Positions 13,927 through 58,702 of a stretch of 64,000 nt of DNA are shown one piece after another. The notes under the pieces are model-generated. The model saw nothing but the letters and a program-made list of their open reading frames with translations. It was not told the DNA's origin and searched no databases. The stretch spans positions 1 to 64,000 of the forward strand of contig NZ_RHOA01000006.1 in the NCBI RefSeq assembly GCF_003946545.1, written 5' to 3'. The DNA comes from Levilactobacillus tangyuanensis (GTDB lineage: Bacteria; Bacillota; Bacilli; Lactobacillales; Lactobacillaceae). Positions within the stretch are counted from its first letter, which is position 1. Each line of letters begins with the position of its first letter. The position numbers and the translations under genes were made by a program.

Positions 13927-14091
13927 GGCCGCCTTCCGGTTGGCCAGCTAGATGCTAGAACGCCATGGGCACGGCTTTGAGCCAAAAAACGTCTCAAAGG
14001 CCGACCTTTCTCTAAGCCGGGAATCCCGCCCAACTAAGAGAAATTTCATGGCTGAGCATCTATCTGACCGCCCTCTCGGCTAACACTGACC
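13927..14091 (-). repeat. Structured intergenic repeat Y3
   Basis: Minus-strand copy: AGCCGAGAGGGCGG at the right end and CCAACCGGAAGGCGGCC at the left, followed by a short GGCC-ttc-GGCC hairpin. Inner stem GCCATG/CATGGC; P2 TTTCTCTTAG..TTAGAGAAA; P3 CTTTGAG/CTCAAAG. Its 3' end faces the thiM start and it lies in the thiM leader in sense orientation. Confidence 0.85.
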
Positions 14092-14475: not shown

Positions 14476-14488
14476 ATGGGTGCCACGA

Positions 14489-14577
14489 CACGTTCCCTTC
14501 GCAAGTTTGAACTTGACAGGTTCTAAGGGATCGCTGTTAAATCAACATCTCAGCCCACGAATGGACACCCCTAGTGT
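14489..14577 (-). promoter_or_regulatory. TPP riboswitch
   Basis: The minus strand carries the conserved aptamer: CTAGGGGTGTCC, then GGGCTGAGAT, then CCCTTAGAACCTGTC, and TTGCGAAGGGAACGTG. These are the J-regions and helices that bind the pyrimidine and diphosphate of TPP. A terminator follows after about 14 nt, so high TPP should stop transcription before thiM. Confidence 0.93.
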
Positions 14578-14630
14578 TTTGGTTACTTCTAGCCTACCAG
14601 CTTTCGCTCGTGACAACAACGCTTCTTAGA

Positions 14631-16002: not shown

Positions 16003-16178
16003 AGCCGTGAGGGCGGCCAGATAGATGCTCAGCCATGAAATTTCTCTTAGGCGGGTGACCTTCCCGACTTAGAGAAAGGCCGGCCTTTGAGACCGCTCTT
16101 TGGCTCAAAGCCGTGCCCATGGCGTTCCAGCATCACTCTGGCCAACCGGCAAGGCGACAAGGGTGGCCTACGGCCACC
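16003..16178 (+). repeat. Structured intergenic repeat Y6
   Basis: A model copy. Composite stem: GGCCAGA/TCTGGCC, GATGCT/AGCATC, GCCATG/CATGGC. P2: TTTCTCTTAGGCGGG with CCCGACTTAGAGAAA (T-T and G-A mismatches). P3: CTTTGAG/CTCAAAG. GCGTTCCAGC lies 3' of the inner stem; the 3' hairpin is GGGTGGCC-tac-GGCCACC. It ends 18 nt from the fetB stop codon and precedes that operon's terminator. Confidence 0.9.
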
Positions 16179-23760: not shown

Positions 23761-24408
23761 TTAAACGGTCAGGCTTTTGCCCGCCAAAAAAGAGTCCTCA
23801 AAGTCTGCCCGCGTCTTAACCTTCTTACCGAATTCATCAATCAAGGCATGAAATTCTTGATAATCAGTCAATTCAAAGTCTAGTTGGGCCACGACCTTCT
23901 TCTGAAAGGCCGGGTAAGTCTTGGGCATGGTCGCCCCCAGCCAGCCAAACAACCGGCGAGCATAGGTGTCGACCATGAAGGCCCCGTGATCCAACGTGTA
24001 CATCAGGATATAATCGGCCGTTTCGTTGCCGATCCCCGTAATGGCCAGAAGGTCGGCCCGGAGACTGACACCATCGCGTTGCCGCAGGGCGTCCAGGTCA
24101 TCCCCATTAGCGCCAAGCCATTCGGCCAGCGCCCGGACTGCCGCGCCCTTGCGGTGATAGAACCCACTGGTTCGAATCAAGTCGAGCAACTCGTCTTCTC
24201 CAAGCTGCCGAAGCTTAGCGGGATCGAACCCGGTCACGCGTTTTAAATTCAGTAAGGATGGTTCAACATTACGCCAGTTGGTGTTTTGAACCAGAATAGC
24301 CCCCAACATAATCTCTACGGGAGTCTCGGCCCAGGGTGTTCCGGGACGCAACCAGGGCTGAGGTCCCATCGCCTTAGCCATGATTTGATAAAGTTCTTGC
24401 ACGTTCAC
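23761..24408 (-). CDS. EndoIII-like HhH-GPD DNA glycosylase without Fe-S cluster
   Basis: A 215-residue base-excision repair glycosylase-like protein. The helix-hairpin-helix is ITGIGNETADYIL near 125 and the catalytic Asp is in VDTYARR near 150. At the position of the EndoIII Lys (GRKTAN) this protein has Glu (GNETAD), so it should be a monofunctional glycosylase, if active. The C-terminal four-Cys cluster loop is absent. The start is GTG at 24408 behind AAGGAGG; the longer frame to 24447 has no good signal. Its base specificity is unknown. Confidence 0.85.
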   Translation of the reverse strand: MNVQELYQIMAKAMGPQPWLRPGTPWAETPVEIMLGAILVQNTNWRNVEPSLLNLKRVTGFDPAKLRQLGEDELLDLIRTSGFYHRKGAAVRALAEWLGANGDDLDALRQRDGVSLRADLLAITGIGNETADYILMYTLDHGAFMVDTYARRLFGWLGATMPKTYPAFQKKVVAQLDFELTDYQEFHALIDEFGKKVKTRADFEDSFLAGKSLTV

Positions 24409-28547: not shown

Positions 28548-29480
28548 ATGAAGAAATCAACACTGACTTGGGCCCTTCCCTTAGCGGGACTTGCGGCCAC
28601 TTCCCTCATTGCCAGTGAGCGACTGTTCAACTTTGCCTTCAAGCGCGTCAACTACGTGCCAGAAACTTCTGCCGACAAACAGAAGTATGCCGATGCCTAC
28701 TATGCCTATGTCGACTGGTATAAAAAGGTTAAGAAGGAAAAATGGTTCCTGCACGAACACGATCCCAATAACCGGATGGTCGCGGAATATATTCCAGCGG
28801 AAACGCCTAGCCAACAGACCGTCATCATCTCCCATGGTTACAAGGGAAACGGTGAAACCATGGCTAACTTTGCCCAGATGTATCACCAACTTGGCTTTAA
28901 TGTCCTCCTACCCGATGACCGTGGCCATGGCGAGAGTGCCGGCAAATACATTAGTTTTGGCTGGTTAGATCGCTTGGACTATCAAGAATGGATTCGCCAG
29001 GTCATCGAACGGTCGTCACAAGACGTCAAGATCCTGATGTTTGGCGTTAGCATGGGGGGCGCCACGATGGAAATGCTCTCCGGCGAGAGCCTGCCCAAGC
29101 AGGTTAAGGCGATCATCGCCGACTGTGGCTACTCCAGCATCGAGGCCGAATTGACCTACCTGTTGAAGCGCCAGTTCCACCTGCCAAAATACCCATTGGA
29201 GCCACTCGTCAGCACGATTTCCAAGCGCCGACTGGGCTACTACCTGGGTGATGTTTCCGCTACCGAACAGTTGGCCAAGAATAAGCGGCCAATCCTGTTT
29301 ATCCACGGTGACAAGGACGTTTACGTTCCCGTGGGCATGGCCTACGAGAACTATGCCGCCACGCATGCACCAAAACAATTATGGATTGTGAAGAATGCTT
29401 CACATGCCGAAAGTTTTTGGATTAATCCAAAACGCTACCAGGAACACGTTGAAGAGTTCTTGACGACCTACTTTAAGTAA
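28548..29480 (+). CDS. Alpha/beta hydrolase with N-terminal membrane anchor
   Basis: A 310-residue hydrolase. Residues 1-22 form a signal peptide or membrane anchor (MKKSTLTWALPLAGLAATSL). SHGYKGNG gives the oxyanion region near 98, the nucleophile is in FGVSMGG near 170, Asp in HGDKDVYVP near 255, and His in NASHAES near 287. It resembles cell-surface hydrolases of lactobacilli (YqkD/Ytap type). Substrate unknown. Confidence 0.87.
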   Translation: MKKSTLTWALPLAGLAATSLIASERLFNFAFKRVNYVPETSADKQKYADAYYAYVDWYKKVKKEKWFLHEHDPNNRMVAEYIPAETPSQQTVIISHGYKGNGETMANFAQMYHQLGFNVLLPDDRGHGESAGKYISFGWLDRLDYQEWIRQVIERSSQDVKILMFGVSMGGATMEMLSGESLPKQVKAIIADCGYSSIEAELTYLLKRQFHLPKYPLEPLVSTISKRRLGYYLGDVSATEQLAKNKRPILFIHGDKDVYVPVGMAYENYAATHAPKQLWIVKNASHAESFWINPKRYQEHVEEFLTTYFK

Positions 29481-29584
29481 TTCCGGACGAAATCTTCACA
29501 ATTTAGATTTCCTTTATAAATTAATCAAAAAGTCGTCACGGAATGCCCCCTTTTCTATTCACAAACTGGGGGTATAGTTATCAT

Positions 29585-29786
29585 CATAGTAATTAGCCAA
29601 TAGCTATTACTAGTCAAAATCTACTTCCAATCCCTTTTTTTAAGATTCTCCTCCCCAGAGAATCGCAATCCCTGGATAGGACCCCTCAAGCCTATCCACC
29701 CCCTCAAAATGAGTCACTCCCCCTAGTGGCTCACTCCTCATGAATAAAACCGCGGCAGCCCCTTACCAAGGCTGCCGCGATTTTCT
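29585..29786 (+). ncRNA. Candidate small RNA with C-rich loops
   Basis: After a -10-like TATAGT there are five successive hairpins: TAGTAAT/ATTACTA (29588-29612), GATTCTC/GAGAATC (29644-29664), TGGATAGG/CCTATCCA (29673-29698), GAGTCACT/AGTGGCTC (29711-29732), and the terminator CGCGGCAGCC/GGCTGCCGCG (29751-29779) followed by ATTTT. Loops or linkers contain CTCCCC, ACCCCTC, CCACCCCCTC and CCCCCT, which are complementary to Shine-Dalgarno sequences. No open frame with a Shine-Dalgarno was seen. Confidence 0.55.
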
Positions 29787-29812
29787 TGTTCTGATTCTTC
29801 TTTCGTTCATTG

Positions 29813-29897: not shown

Positions 29898-29943
29898 AAT
29901 AGCGACCGTCACAACGGAGTTAACCCTTGTGACGGTCGCTATT
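29898..29943 (-). terminator. Terminator of purB
   Basis: AATAGCGACCGTCACAA pairs perfectly with TTGTGACGGTCGCTATT; on the minus strand a T5 tract follows. It lies beyond repeat Y8. Confidence 0.85.
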
Positions 29944-30044
29944 GCTTTGTTCAGATCTATTATCCTATGGCAGCTTAACGCGAATGTACCCGTCACCGCC
30001 GACTACGGGCCTTTAACTAAGACTAGGTGGGACGAGCTATCGTA

Positions 30045-30198
30045 GCAGGAACCCGGAAGCAGATGGGGCTCAGCCATGAAATTTCTCTTAGCCCAGTGAT
30101 CTGCTGGGGTTAGAGAAAGGCCAGCCTTTGAGACCGACCTTTGGGCTCAAAGCTGAGCCCATGGCGTTCCAGCCCAAAATCTGCTGGAGGGTTCCTGC
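30045..30198 (+). repeat. Structured intergenic repeat Y8
   Basis: Outer stem GCAGGAACCC (30045-30054) with 30189-30198; then CAGAT/ATCTG, GGGCT/AGCCC and GCCATG/CATGGC. P2 is TTTCTCTTAGCCCAG with CTGGGGTTAGAGAAA; P3 is CTTTGAG/CTCAAAG. GCGTTCCAGC is present. It starts 26 nt from the purB stop and precedes the purB terminator. Confidence 0.88.
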
Positions 30199-30224
30199 GG
30201 CCAATACCGATGATCCGTTCTAAA

Positions 30225-31526
30225 CTAGTCTTCCGTCAAACCAAGCCGGTTGAAGATATAGTCAACGCGACGAAGATGGTAATGGTAATCGAAGGCATCG
30301 TCGATCTGCTCCGGCGTCAACCGCGCCGTAATTTCAGCATTAGCCTCGACCAATGGCCGGAATTGAATTTGCTGGTCCCAAGCCTGTGCCGTCAAGGGTT
30401 GTACCAGGTCATAGGCTGCCTCACGACTCAGCCCACTTTCAATCAACTTCAATAATAGTCGTTGACTGTAAATTAACCCATAGGTCCGACCCATGTTAGC
30501 CTTCATCGTTTCTGGGAAAACATCCAATTGACTTAAAATTCGATTGAATCGGTGAAGCGAGTAGTCCAGTAAGGTGGTCGTTTCCGGTAGAATCATCCGC
30601 TCGGCAGAAGAATGGGAGATGTCTCGTTCATGCCACAGACTGACGTTTTCATAAGCCGTCACCACCGTCCCACGAATGACCCGGGCCAACCCGGTCACAT
30701 TCTCGGAGCCAATCGGGTTGCGCTTGTGGGGCATTGCCGAGGAACCCTTTTGTCCGGGGTTAAAATGTTCCTCAACCTCATGGATTTCGGAACGCTGGAG
30801 GCTCCGAATTTCCGTGGCAAACTCCTCAATACTCGTGGCAATCAAGGCCATCGTGGCAATGTAGTCCGCATGCAGGTCTCGCGGCAGCACCTGACTAGCA
30901 ATTGGTTGGGCGCTAATCTCCAGTTGGTCACAGACAAACGCCTCGACCTCAGGTGGCACATTGGCAAAGGTCCCGACTGCCCCACTAATTTTACCGGTCT
31001 CCACCCCTTTGGCGGCCCGATCGAATCGGTCCAGGTTCCGTTGCATTTCGGCATACCACCGAGCGATCTTCAGGCCAAAGGTCGTGGGCTCGGCCTGGAC
31101 CCCGTGGGTCCGACCAATCATGACGGTCTCCTTATATTGAAGGGCTAGCTTCTTCAAGGTCGCAATCAGGGTCACAATGTCCGTCCGCAAGACCGTATTG
31201 GCCTGCTTTAACCGGTATCCCTGAGCCGTGTCAACAACGTCCGTACTCGTCACACCGAAGTGAATCCATTTTCGTTCGGCGCCCAATGATTCGGAAACGT
31301 TACGCGTGAACGCCACAATATCGTGATGGGTCACGGCCTCAATCTCGGCAATCCGGTCAACATCAAAGGTGGCATTGGCCCGAATCTTCGCGGCGTCTTC
31401 GGCAGGTACCTCGCCTAACTTGGCCCAAGCCTCATCAATCGCCACCTCCACGGCTAACCAGGATGCATATTGGTTTTTTAATGACCAAATCTGACCCATC
31501 TCGGGACGCGTATAACGTTCTAACAT
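30225..31526 (-). CDS. purB: Adenylosuccinate lyase
   Basis: A 433-residue fumarase/aspartase-superfamily enzyme that releases fumarate from SAICAR and from adenylosuccinate. The signature loop GSSAMPHKRNP is near residue 265, TSTDVVDT near 90 and GRTHGVQAEPTTFG near 140. GGAGGAATTTG leads to the ATG at 31526; the longer frame is not needed. It is divergent from purA-guaC, with PurBoxes in the shared region. Repeat Y8 forms its 3' UTR. Confidence 0.95.
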   Translation of the reverse strand: MLERYTRPEMGQIWSLKNQYASWLAVEVAIDEAWAKLGEVPAEDAAKIRANATFDVDRIAEIEAVTHHDIVAFTRNVSESLGAERKWIHFGVTSTDVVDTAQGYRLKQANTVLRTDIVTLIATLKKLALQYKETVMIGRTHGVQAEPTTFGLKIARWYAEMQRNLDRFDRAAKGVETGKISGAVGTFANVPPEVEAFVCDQLEISAQPIASQVLPRDLHADYIATMALIATSIEEFATEIRSLQRSEIHEVEEHFNPGQKGSSAMPHKRNPIGSENVTGLARVIRGTVVTAYENVSLWHERDISHSSAERMILPETTTLLDYSLHRFNRILSQLDVFPETMKANMGRTYGLIYSQRLLLKLIESGLSREAAYDLVQPLTAQAWDQQIQFRPLVEANAEITARLTPEQIDDAFDYHYHLRRVDYIFNRLGLTED

Positions 31527-34178: not shown

Positions 34179-34619
34179 TTAGTCGTAAAAATGAGCAATT
34201 TTTTTGCCTTTTATGTAATCCGTTTGAGATCCCATTTGGTACCCACGAATAACTTTGTAATGCTTCTTCCCAATCTTGCGGGAAGTCAGTTTCATCCCGC
34301 CTTCTGGGAATGGGCTGTCGGCGGCGACACTAATCTTTGAGTTTAAGACAAAGGCGCTACCATATTTCTTATAGGACAAACGATGAGCTTTGCTCTTAGC
34401 CTTAGGGGTGAGTTTAAAAGCGCTATACCCAGGATACTTGATCGAAGCCTTATGAGCCGAAATACTCAGCTTCGTCCACTTATGATGGCCTTGATAAGAA
34501 TAAAAATTCCCACGAATCGACTTTGGCGTGGTCGTTGCACTAGCGGCTGCTGGAACAACCGTGGCGCCGACAACACCTAATGAAACGGCAGAAACTGCCA
34601 ACAACTTCATTAACTTCAA
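34179..34619 (-). CDS. Small secreted protein, paralogue 1
   Basis: A 146-residue protein with a signal peptide (LLAVSAVSLGVVGATVVPAAA, cleavage near AASA). The mature part contains KSIRGNFYSYQGHH, FKLTPKAKSKAHRLSYKK, LNSKI, GGMKLTSRKIGKKHYKVI and DYIKGKKIAHFYD. It is one of four tandem paralogues. The start is TTG with AGGAGGAG 6 nt upstream. The family is not known to me by function; it is very basic, so it could bind the cell wall or teichoic acids. Confidence 0.8.
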   Translation of the reverse strand: MKLMKLLAVSAVSLGVVGATVVPAAASATTTPKSIRGNFYSYQGHHKWTKLSISAHKASIKYPGYSAFKLTPKAKSKAHRLSYKKYGSAFVLNSKISVAADSPFPEGGMKLTSRKIGKKHYKVIRGYQMGSQTDYIKGKKIAHFYD

Positions 34620-34653
34620 ATGACTCTCCTCCTAATCTAAATGATCAAATCAA

Positions 34654-35112
34654 CTAGTTTAAGTAAGTCCGGTAAATGTGCTTAACCTTCTTGCCCTTAA
34701 TAAAGTCCCACTTAGTACCGCTTTGGTAACCGCGAATAACCTTGTAGTGCTTCTTGCCAATCTTACGAGAGGCTAATTGCATCCCCCCGGCTGGGAATGG
34801 ACTGTCGGCCAACACCTTAATCTTGGAGTTTAAGTAGAACCGATTCATCGACTTAAAGTTCTTATAGGATAACCGATGAGCCTTGCTCTTGGCCTTAGTG
34901 GTCAGCTTGAACGCCTTGTCCGAACCAATCTTAATGTAGGCCGAGTGCTTAGAAATCTTTAATTTATCCCATGAATTGTAGCCTTGGTAGGCATAATATG
35001 TACCGCGTAATTTCTTGGGAACCGTCGTCGCGCTAGCAGATGCTGGGACAACCGAAGCCCCGACTACCCCTAATGACACCGTGGCAACCGCCAATAACTT
35101 AACAAGTTTCAC
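34654..35112 (-). CDS. Small secreted protein, paralogue 2
   Basis: A 152-residue secreted protein with the same layout as the gene at 34179 (KLRGTYYAYQGYNSW, TTKAKSKAHRLSYK, GGMQLASRKIGKKHYKVI, WDFIKGKKVKHIY). The start is GTG behind GGAGGAG. It lies 34 nt before paralogue 1 on the same strand, so the two may share a transcript. The mature part is strongly basic. Confidence 0.8.
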   Translation of the reverse strand: MKLVKLLAVATVSLGVVGASVVPASASATTVPKKLRGTYYAYQGYNSWDKLKISKHSAYIKIGSDKAFKLTTKAKSKAHRLSYKNFKSMNRFYLNSKIKVLADSPFPAGGMQLASRKIGKKHYKVIRGYQSGTKWDFIKGKKVKHIYRTYLN

Positions 35113-35235
35113 ATGAATCTCCTCCTTACCTGAATTATTTTAAGTATACTGCGATTTTGCCAAAATGAAACTAGTAATTTAATTATGAAATGGGTAAATT
35201 ATTATCCACCAAAAGCAGATAGCCTTGATCGGTCA

Positions 35236-35271
35236 CAAAAAGCCTGCCCCAGCAAACGCCGAGACAGGCCG
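35236..35271 (-). terminator. Terminator of paralogue 3
   Basis: On the minus strand GCCTG..CAGGC with a long loop is followed by T5. It separates paralogues 3-4 from 1-2. The stretch 35113-35235 holds the promoter of paralogue 2. Confidence 0.65.
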
Positions 35272-35284
35272 CTATCGACCGTCA

Positions 35285-35704
35285 CTAATTCAAAAGTCCC
35301 CAGCTTAGCTTGGTCCCCTTGATATAATTCCATTCATATTTACCCGTATAATTCCGTAGGGCCTGGTATTTTTTACCATCGACGGTTACTTTGACGAGAC
35401 GCAACTTATCACTGGGAAAATATTTCCCCTTAGCAAGCTTGAAATATTTGCCAGTCTTTTTATAGCGAATGCGTTTAGCCGGATGCTTCGCCTTAGACGT
35501 CAGGACGAAGGGTTTTGTCCCCTTCAGTTTCAACGTCACCTTATGCGCAGAGATTATCATTTTGGCATCGAGATGACCATAACTGTAATAGGTCCCACGG
35601 ATTGACTTGGGCACCGTCGTCGAACTGGCGGCCGCCGTTACACCGGTCCCACCAATCAGACTTAAGGCCACCCCAGCAACGGTGACCATTCGTAAAATTT
35701 GCAT
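35285..35704 (-). CDS. Small secreted protein, paralogue 3 (divergent)
   Basis: A 139-residue secreted protein with a signal peptide (MQILRMVTVAGVALSLIGG, cleavage near AAAS). It keeps KSIRGTYYSY, LTSKAKHPAKRIRYKKTGKYF and NYIKGTKL but lacks the SRKIGKKHYKVIRGY block, replaced by VDGKKYQALRNY. It is the most diverged of the four. It follows paralogue 4 by 18 nt. Confidence 0.78.
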   Translation of the reverse strand: MQILRMVTVAGVALSLIGGTGVTAAASSTTVPKSIRGTYYSYGHLDAKMIISAHKVTLKLKGTKPFVLTSKAKHPAKRIRYKKTGKYFKLAKGKYFPSDKLRLVKVTVDGKKYQALRNYTGKYEWNYIKGTKLSWGLLN

Positions 35705-35722
35705 GTGACTCGCCCTCTATTT

Positions 35723-36190
35723 CTAACTTAAATAGGCTCCCTTAACCAGATGGTTATAGGCATTGTTCACCTTTTTACCCTTAATGAAGTCGTATTGGTA
35801 ACGGTTCGAATAGCCCCGAATCACCTGGTAGTGTTTCTTGCCAATCTTACGCGAGGTTAGCTTCATGCCGTCCTTGGGAAAAGAACTCTGTTCCGCAAAG
35901 GTGATTTTCGAGTTAAAGGTAAAATACTTGCCCTTCTTCTTATAGGACAACCGTTTAGCCTTGTTCTTCGCATTCGGCGTCAGCACCTCCGACTTCGAAC
36001 CGGGATAATGCAGCGTCACCTTGTGCGCTGCCACCTTTAAGGAGACCCACTTATGATGGCCCTGATAGGTATAATAGGTTCCCCGCAAGGCCTTGGGAAC
36101 GGTTGTGGTACTGGCGGTTGCCGGAACGACGGCCCCACCGGCAACTCCTAGTGTGACCACGGCGACCGCTAACAACTTAACCAACTTCAT
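35723..36190 (-). CDS. Small secreted protein, paralogue 4
   Basis: A 155-residue secreted protein: signal peptide LLAVAVVTLGVAGGAVVPA, then KALRGTYYTYQGHHKW, LTPNAKNKAKRLSYKKKGKYF, FNSKI, GGMKLTSRKI-type block (DGMKLTSRKIGKKHYQVI) and YDFIKGKKVNNAY. GGGAGGAAATTCAG leads to the ATG. It is the first gene of the minus-strand array. Confidence 0.8.
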   Translation of the reverse strand: MKLVKLLAVAVVTLGVAGGAVVPATASTTTVPKALRGTYYTYQGHHKWVSLKVAAHKVTLHYPGSKSEVLTPNAKNKAKRLSYKKKGKYFTFNSKITFAEQSSFPKDGMKLTSRKIGKKHYQVIRGYSNRYQYDFIKGKKVNNAYNHLVKGAYLS

Positions 36191-36404: not shown

Positions 36405-36545
36405 GTCCGGAGGGTGCCTGGGCCCAGTGGTGTCGTTTGGCTTAGGCGAGTGGGTTGCTCGACTTAGGCAAAGGCTGACCTTAGAGACCGCTCTTTGGCT
36501 CTAAGTCATGCCCACCGCGTTCCGGCCCAAGGGCACCCGCAGGAC
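36405..36545 (+). repeat. Structured intergenic repeat Y9
   Basis: Outer stem GTCC/GGAC, GGGTGCC/GGCACCC and GGCC/GGCC; inner stem GTGGTG/CACCGC. P2 is TTTGGCTTAGGCGAG with CTCGACTTAGGCAAA; P3 is CTTAGAG/CTCTAAG, a compensatory change from CTTTGAG/CTCAAAG. It lies 52 nt from the usp stop codon, before the terminator. Confidence 0.85.
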
Positions 36546-46155: not shown

Positions 46156-46334
46156 GAACGACCTGCGGTCGTTCTGGGCGCCTTACCGGTTGGCCGGTAG
46201 GTGGCCGGAACGCCATGGACACAGCTTTGAGCCAAAGAGCGGTCTCAAAGGCCGGTCTTATTCTAACCTTGGGAAGATCACCCAAGCTAAGAATAATTTC
46301 ATGGCTGAGCCACCTACCGACCGCCCTCACGGCT
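46156..46334 (-). repeat. Structured intergenic repeat Y10
   Basis: Minus-strand copy, from AGCCGTGAGGGCGG (right) to CCAACCGGTAAGGCG (left). Inner stem GCCATG/CATGG-type; P2 TTATTCTTAGCTTGGG with CCCAAGGTTAGAATAA; P3 CTTTGAG/CTCAAAG. The 3' hairpin is AGAACGACC-gca-GGTCGTTC, unrelated in sequence to that of Y4 and Y6 but identical in form. The 3' end faces the potassium channel gene. Confidence 0.88.
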
Positions 46335-58546: not shown

Positions 58547-58702
58547 AGCCGTGAGGGCGCCAGATAGGGGGCTCAGTGGTGTCGTTTGCCTTAGCCGAGC
58601 GACTTTACTCGGGTTAGGCAAAGGTCGAGCTTTGAGACCGGGCTTGGGGCTCAAAGTCGGCCCACCACGTTCCAGCCCCCTAACTGGCAACCGGCAAGGC
58701 GG
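58547..58702 (+). repeat. Structured intergenic repeat Y17
   Basis: Full copy: GCCAG..TAGGGGGCT with AGCCCCCTA..CTGGC; inner GTGGTG/CACCAC; P2 TTTGCCTTAGCCGAG with CTCGGGTTAGGCAAA; P3 CTTTGAG/CTCAAAG; ACGTTCCAGC. It is divergent to Y16 with 60 bp between them, downstream of the xylA terminator. Confidence 0.88.

Follow-up and report, generated by a model that had tools for sequence, protein, structure and literature searches.

Between an alpha/beta-hydrolase gene and purB of Levilactobacillus tangyuanensis lies a stretch of about 200 nt in which hairpins with C-rich loops follow one another. Is this stretch a small-RNA (sRNA) gene, as a first-pass annotation of the DNA had proposed, and to which kind of RNA could it be assigned? 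These questions were addressed in the whole analyzed stretch of 64,000 nucleotides (the window) and in the genomes of related bacteria.

Structure and boundaries of the predicted RNA

The five hairpins noted in the first-pass annotation were all recovered at the same place (H1-H5, within 29585-29785). Folding of the region 29560-29800 yielded -73.9 kcal/mol, compared with -42.9 +/- 3.8 kcal/mol for 200 dinucleotide shuffles, none of which was as good (z -8.17). A covariance model, R1, aligned with the window at 29585-29740 with 136.7 bits, a score to which the window sequence contributes as part of R1. The predicted elements of the locus are as follows:

29495-29518, plus strand: distal conserved element of putative function, comprising TTCACA (29495-29500) and the 11-bp repeat TTTAGA-N5-TTTATA (29502-29518)
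29535-29540, plus strand: TCA-type half-site GTCACG of putative function, 23 bp upstream of the next TTCACA; such a half-site is present in 30/30 relatives
29558-29563, plus strand: putative half-site TTCACA by the -10 box; TCACAA in 30/30 relatives, exact TTCACA in 22
29573-29578, plus strand: predicted -10 box TATAGT, shared by 29/30 relatives (TATATT in one)
29585-29785, plus strand: predicted small RNA, starting at about 29584-29585 and ending after the U-run of H5 (fold z -8.17)
29587-29612, plus strand: hairpin H1, nearly invariant, with both-side changes in 1/9 pairs
29613-29643, plus strand: linker with invariant CAAUCCC (CAATCCC in 30/30 relatives)
29644-29664, plus strand: hairpin H2, loop CUCCCCA here and UCCCCCUAA in most relatives
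29673-29698, plus strand: hairpin H3, loop ACCCCUCAAG; compensatory change in 4/8 pairs, CCTCAA in 30/30 relatives
29699-29709, plus strand: single-stranded linker CCCCCUCAAAA (ACUCCUCUAA in most relatives; YYCCTCWA in 30/30)
29710-29733, plus strand: hairpin H4, loop CCCCCU; compensatory change in 6/10 pairs, CCCCY in 30/30 relatives
29734-29750, plus strand: single-stranded CUCCUCAUGAAUAAAAC 5' of the terminator (TCCTCA in 30/30 relatives)
29751-29785, plus strand: terminator hairpin H5 (hairpin 29751-29779), loop CCUUACCAA, followed by UUUU; missed by a consensus scan

The C-rich loops and linkers described earlier are present, the linkers CCAAUCCC, CCCCCUCAAAA and CUCCUCAUG being C-rich as well. 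UCCC and CUCC occur four times each in 29585-29785, within loops and linkers; in the window species the loop of H5 contributes CC only. The 3' hairpin had been called a strong terminator. The 10-bp stem of H5 agrees with that description, but the U-run of just four (AUUUUC 3' of H5), which the consensus scan did not call, does not. At this end the longest T-run is 5-7 in 24/30 relatives. The RNA also appears non-coding, as had been stated: no frame of at least 15 codons lies inside it in 25/30 relatives and the frames of the other five are unrelated. A small protein gene was ruled out, as no reading frame is common to the relatives.

The alpha/beta-hydrolase gene is found upstream of the RNA in 30/30 loci, while purB, the nearest downstream gene, is convergent and was found within about 1.5 kb in 24/30. 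Both neighbors have Pfam support. Several further features were recorded in the window. A 20-bp inverted repeat at 29898-29943, with T-runs on both sides, is probably a two-way terminator for purB. After purB there is a strongly folded palindromic element of about 106-190 nt (29990-30225; z -5.4) that is one member of a dispersed repeat. Six others, matching over 91-119 nt, lie near 16027-16131, 46203-46311, 13954-14057, 58561-58678, 2650-2757 and 36441-36530, and two shorter stretches also match (72-86% identity across the 64-kb window). A TPP riboswitch was detected at 14476-14582 on the minus strand (62.3 bits), and four adjoining genes at 34179-36190 encode small secreted proteins with similar signal sequences, a tandem gene family.

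Conservation and covariation within Levilactobacillus

The RNA was found by blastn in 34/35 Levilactobacillus genomes, the remaining one being 72% complete; 23 genomes from elsewhere in the order gave no match. A pattern scan of genomes returned 25 records, i.e. 22 of Levilactobacillus, among them the L. brevis CD0817 chromosome (CP032931.1, 2,990,570 bases), two of Lactobacillus and one of Lacticaseibacillus brantae.

Covariation was assessed in an alignment of 30 Levilactobacillus sequences (29 distinct) with a structure of 34 pairs. In this alignment 95.2% of cells are paired, 13 pairs show changes on both sides and there are 68 double-change cells; 500 shuffles gave 87.7%, 7.9 pairs and 19.9 cells, and none was as high. 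A weaker measure, the number of further pair types, was equalled in 19/500 shuffles. When the pairing partner was slid, paired cells fell to 27-39%, and the structure that RNAalifold itself proposed has double changes in 10/28 pairs.

Conservation of the loops, on which the first-pass annotation had made its proposal depend, was found in the relatives: the mean majority frequency is 0.94 for unpaired C-rich elements and 0.86 for stems H2-H4. The 56 columns of the former differ from the 50 columns of the latter with a Mann-Whitney p of 8e-5, a value computed over columns that are not independent. Two elements depart from this trend: no loop is more fixed than the H1 stem (0.96), and linker 3 (0.89) does not exceed the stems of H2 (0.93) and H3 (0.91). 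In addition to the CAATCCC, CCTCAA, YYCCTCWA and TCCTCA elements and the CCCCY of the H4 loop, a run of four C is common to 30/30 relatives. To judge from these alignments, the stems vary by compensating changes and the C-rich loops stay fixed. With its predicted promoter and terminator, the stretch has the appearance of a genuine small-RNA gene, conserved in Levilactobacillus.

A multicopy family in lactic acid bacteria

Model R1 was run over 397 Lactobacillaceae genomes, 34 of which matched: all 25 sampled Levilactobacillus genomes and nine others. This count still includes two matches (L113 of genome G416 and L110 of G429) that were judged to be due to chance, as they lie across a tRNA-like stretch and have no such promoter. 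Matches in another genus (L052, L053) lie in sequence judged by eye to be coding. L. brantae carries two distant copies in tandem, with R1 E-values of 1.8e-7 and 4.9e-6 and fold z-scores of -8.0 and -8.2; locus L054 was checked for its identity with L077, the record from this species. In G076, of another genus, the same two neighboring genes (77% and 76% identity), again with convergent purB, enclose an intergenic RNA of the same layout and mostly different sequence (locus L107; R1 E 7.6e-7).

A second covariance model, R2, was built from nine short-class copies: two of L. brantae, six of genus g55 and one of genome G400. It matched 174/397 Lactobacillaceae genomes (19/40 genera) and 86/246 Lactobacillales genomes (32/65 genera), counts in which matches near E 0.01 include chance ones (about four expected per 397 genomes, the E-values being rough by about 5-fold). 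The copies per genome are lower bounds, the maxima being at least 7 in Lactobacillaceae and at least 12 in Lactobacillales. In 74 R2 matches from 45 loci, 92.1% of cells are paired and there are 254 double-change cells (shuffles, 71), in an alignment that was made by fitting to the R2 model and leans towards it. The element ACTCCTCC occurs in 61 of these matches, ACTCCYCC in 67 and a T-run at the end in 72.

The genome of the window carries three more copies, one on the same contig outside the window (C32:92672-92796) and two elsewhere (C33:82646-82808 and C13:1608-1753). Against the window copy itself R2 scored 12.6 bits (E 0.89), over the first part only; its orthologues scored 29.9 bits (L010) and 31.5 bits (G015; E 8.1e-4). 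Covarying stems with fixed, unpaired C-rich sites are a feature that the window RNA shares with the R2 family. By these comparisons the window RNA seems to belong, as a divergent member, to a multicopy family that occurs in many lactic acid bacteria. Its link to the family would run through its orthologues, through R1 with the L. brantae copies and through the promoter.

Individual copies have features of their own. Those of genus g29 (L054, L114, L118) adjoin tRNA-Ala genes. In a copy from the genus Lacticaseibacillus (L108 of G248), a foreign insert with a hairpin seems to break the sequence downstream of the first C-rich loop. L115 (1352-1810, G357) consists of two long tandem copies with the extra-hairpin loops UCCCCCUAA and UCCUCCCA, the former identical to the Levilactobacillus H2 loop.

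Promoter and putative regulator sites

The end of the TCACAA half-site is always 21 nt before a conserved (C/T)ATAG in the 30 relatives, and 20-21 nt in other copies of the family. TTCACA is separated from TATAGT by 9 nt, so the spacing is not that of an ordinary -35 box; a promoter scan matched TTCACA to a different hexamer at 18 nt, and only weakly. The distance from the window TTCACA to the RNA start equals that of the second half of a direct repeat, TTCACA-N5-TTCACA, in other copies. The double site is absent from the window promoter in a scan at 2 mismatches, a single half-site being kept. The TTTAGA-N5-TTTATA repeat, with spacing like that of the CiaR repeat, lies about 55 bp further upstream than TTCACA, and its TTTA-N7-YTTA spacing is kept in 30/30 relatives; the distal element as a whole is a possible second regulator site.

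Elsewhere in the family the double site accompanies most of the copies inspected. With up to 3 mismatches it occurs within 75 nt upstream of 46/48 R2 loci (9.5 expected from shuffles), many of them from genus g55 and hence not independent. At 30 of those loci it has 0-1 mismatch, its end lying 20-21 nt from the RNA start. In the order-level loci L260-L266 the repeat is weaker and differently placed. Among the extra copies in the window's genome it is clear at two of three but not at L162. In a reverse search, TTCACANNTTCTTCACA with at most one mismatch gave 15 matches in 7 genomes (backward control, 1). ACTCCYCC follows 51-77 nt downstream in nine of these, R2 identifies a further one (L130) as a copy, and five are ambiguous. 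The exact repeat TTCACA-N5-TTCACA gave 47 matches in 21 g55 genomes (backward control, 7); among the 27 loci listed, the sRNA motif is present at 19 and absent from 8.

Four of these eight motif-less loci, together with L129, adjoin a gene for a PPIase-domain lipoprotein, which we take to be PrsA-like. In five g55 genomes (L129, L250, L253, L255, L257) the repeat is conserved in opposite orientation, at a distance of about 80-120 nt to the lipoprotein gene start. TTCACA-type repeats also precede short stretches ending in a terminator-like hairpin at L127 1501-1640 (the window's own genome, C33:35648) and L121 1501-1640 (G015). These are not R2 copies (L121 is weak, 19.5 bits) and are perhaps more sRNAs of the same regulon.

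An 11-bp direct repeat by the -10 box is a mark of OmpR-family activators. The case of CiaR, as far as the cited text describes it (PMC3091779), supports such an assignment. By analogy, the direct repeat of the family promoters would be of the OmpR-regulator type, from which we infer the regulator. Comparison among genomes brings out the gene, its promoter, the structure, the fixed unpaired seeds, the family, its copies and the linked direct repeat. Apparent membership of a multicopy family and a response-regulator-like promoter half-site are both additions to the first-pass annotation.

Comparison with known small RNAs

No Rfam family matches the window RNA and a known Rfam RNA was therefore rejected; no description of it was found in searches of openly licensed papers. 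Four described kinds of RNA resemble it in part. The csRNAs of the streptococcal CiaRH regulon are, like the RNAs described here, multicopy, and carry anti-Shine-Dalgarno (anti-SD) sequences in unpaired regions. Their promoters also have an 11-bp direct repeat by the -10 box (both points from sections of PMC3091779); the window copy keeps a single half-site, of the TTCACA type, there. The csRNA repeat is TTTAAG-N5-TTTAAG according to the same sections, in contrast to the TTCACA type of the lactobacillar family, and the window promoter has no NTTAAG-N5-TTTAAG immediately upstream of its -10 box. The csRNA nonamer [A/C]UCCUAAA[A/C] has no match in 29585-29785; the source sections note that it is missing from some csRNAs too, that a CiaH homologue was not found in Lactobacillus and that lactobacilli and streptococci have no Hfq (PMC3091779). 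In number of stem-loops the window RNA, with five, exceeds many csRNAs, which have one or two.

LhrC of Listeria is likewise multicopy, and its loops, its linker and its terminator carry several redundant CU-rich sites (parts of PMC4132741 and PMC7602753), three of which block lapB (PMC4132741, in part). The window RNA fits this pattern of redundant UCCC sites, which lie in its loops and linkers, the terminator loop having CC only. Control by a two-component system and blocking of the ribosome site, reported for LhrC in those parts of PMC4132741 and PMC7602753, may likewise hold for the window RNA. Its five hairpins differ from the loop, linker and terminator of LhrC as outlined there, and the Rfam LhrC model matched neither the window nor any of 15 copy loci scanned at gathering scores.

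Ref84 (Rfam RF02846, Enterococcus sRNA 84) is a shorter RNA than that of the window. Its cut-off of 52 bits was passed by two f3-genome loci, both of which R2 also finds (L268, 30.1 bits; L267, 28.1 bits). Of the seven R2 loci outside Lactobacillaceae, four were matched by Ref84 below the cut-off (E 0.11-0.48). One sub-threshold match was obtained over 21 Levilactobacillus genomes, and none in the window or the window's genome (G000), even at E 1. Since 3/14 control genomes also gave matches, none over the cut-off, little can be concluded from sub-threshold matches to Ref84 by themselves. The model thus appears to overlap the wider family weakly. No paper naming Ref84 was found among the matches listed.

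In the rhizobial alpha-r14/NfeR1 RNAs the same anti-SD motif recurs in each loop and the stems change freely, as here; NfeR1 has three redundant anti-SD loops whose seeds block the ribosome site (sections of PMC10746234). The combined mark of that family, a match to the ar14 model (RF02344, cut-off 58.8 bits) with CCUCCUCCC in three loops, is absent from the window RNA: the model did not match the window, and gave sub-threshold scores of 33.5 and 29.0 bits for two other copies. The likeness, across phyla, is presumably convergent. We class the RNA as a variant of the multicopy anti-SD sRNA kind, outside csRNA, LhrC, Ref84 and alpha-r14.

Anti-SD seeds and candidate targets

The first-pass annotation had noted that the seeds are complementary to sequences before many genes, and this holds for the window. 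A run of at least 7 nt complementary to an unpaired segment occurs at 19/49 gene starts (56 gene calls minus six doubtful ones and 23761-24408), and at 1-5 of 49 for each of seven shifted positions, so complementarity peaks at start regions. GGGGG precedes 7/56 window genes, and GAGGAG also 7/56. Since a large proportion of all ribosome sites can match anti-SD seeds, these do not account for target specificity.

In 34 Levilactobacillus genomes the summed counts before ATG are 225 for TGAGGAGTG (40 backward) and 216 for TTAGGGGGA (74 backward), an excess that measures ribosome sites rather than targeting, since the backward control has no ribosome-site function. At the loci opened, the genes behind such sites encode a DivIC protein, a phosphonate-binding protein, WxL and KxYKxGKxW surface proteins, NAD synthase, a phosphopantetheine carrier protein, presumably DltC, and a 97-residue protein without a Pfam match. 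The DltC-like gene has GGGGG upstream in 30/30 loci examined (33 genomes carry the gene) and TAGGGGG in 17; GGGGG also stands before 7/56 window genes, so this is no proof of targeting. Candidate targets, weakly suggested by these sequences, are the DltC-like gene with its AGGGGGA ribosome site and those for DivIC, phosphonate-binding, WxL and KxYKxGKxW proteins, mostly cell-envelope genes.

Proposed mode of action

In our judgement the RNA is quite probably an independently transcribed, trans-acting sRNA that pairs with Shine-Dalgarno regions via redundant C-rich sites. The promoter, the terminator, the lack of a reading frame, the unpaired anti-SD sites and the likeness to LhrC and csRNAs all agree with the small-RNA class chosen in the first-pass annotation. 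Expression, regulator, pairing, repression and action in trans on mRNAs are inferred as follows. An OmpR-family response regulator would bind the TTCACA-type half-sites by the -10 box and the promoter would then be read. The product would be an RNA of about 200 nt from its own transcription unit, ended by Rho-independent termination and acting in trans. Its hairpins would keep redundant C-rich seeds (UCCC, CUCC, CCCCC and CCUCAA) open. Pairing of a seed with the Shine-Dalgarno region in particular mRNAs would keep the 30S subunit away, and the several seeds of each molecule and copies of each genome would add up. By analogy, blocking of the ribosome site as in LhrC, csRNA and NfeR1 would be the simplest reading.

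CsrB and RsmZ sequester a protein through GGA loops, and the many near-equal, exposed loops on covarying stems give the window RNA a comparable decoy layout. Equal C-rich loops might thus sequester an RNA-binding protein, with mRNA pairing secondary. We consider such titration unlikely: the motif that stays fixed is one complementary to ribosome sites, with the peak at gene starts, the linkers outside the hairpins are as fixed as the loops, and we know of no partner protein. The same possibility was raised for LhrC by its authors, in the part of PMC4132741 consulted here. Alternatively, the loops could soak up G-rich regulatory RNAs rather than ribosome sites, a sponge function from which complementarity alone cannot separate mRNA pairing and which we regard as very improbable.

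Other readings would tie the RNA to its neighbors. The hydrolase gene stands 5' of it in 30/30 loci and no terminator was called in 29480-29585, so read-through is possible and the RNA might be only a structured 3' UTR with the terminator of that gene, not acting in trans. The conserved promoter immediately 5' of the RNA, the kept loops on changing stems and the other genes (e.g. those for tRNA-Ala) beside other copies make this distinctly improbable. As a structured RNA within intergenic space it could also be a cis-acting leader of a downstream gene, but purB runs convergently in L107 and in the 24/30 loci at which it was detected within about 1.5 kb, and the terminator closes the RNA; this reading is hardly tenable. 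A riboswitch or leader was rejected, purB being convergent, as was a plasmid or phage origin, for which there was no match.

Wider significance

Post-transcriptional control in lactobacilli is little charted; in streptococci and listeriae a two-component system can steer the cell envelope through multicopy anti-SD sRNAs. A broader conjecture, rather doubtful, is that in lactobacilli and their order one OmpR-family response regulator acts to a large part through multi-loop anti-SD sRNAs, a set of which would be a main output of it and the counterpart of CiaRH-csRNA and LisRK-LhrC. In this view the lactobacillar copies, csRNA, LhrC and Ref84 would all descend from one ancient multicopy sRNA family that keeps its seeds and exchanges its stems. 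If trans-acting regulation of this kind is true, many food and gut lactobacilli would carry an undescribed set of anti-SD sRNAs, and the promoter motif would let the regulator of these sRNAs be found. The copies form a natural series, in which the seeds are fixed while the stems change freely, and this would make the function of the seeds directly testable.
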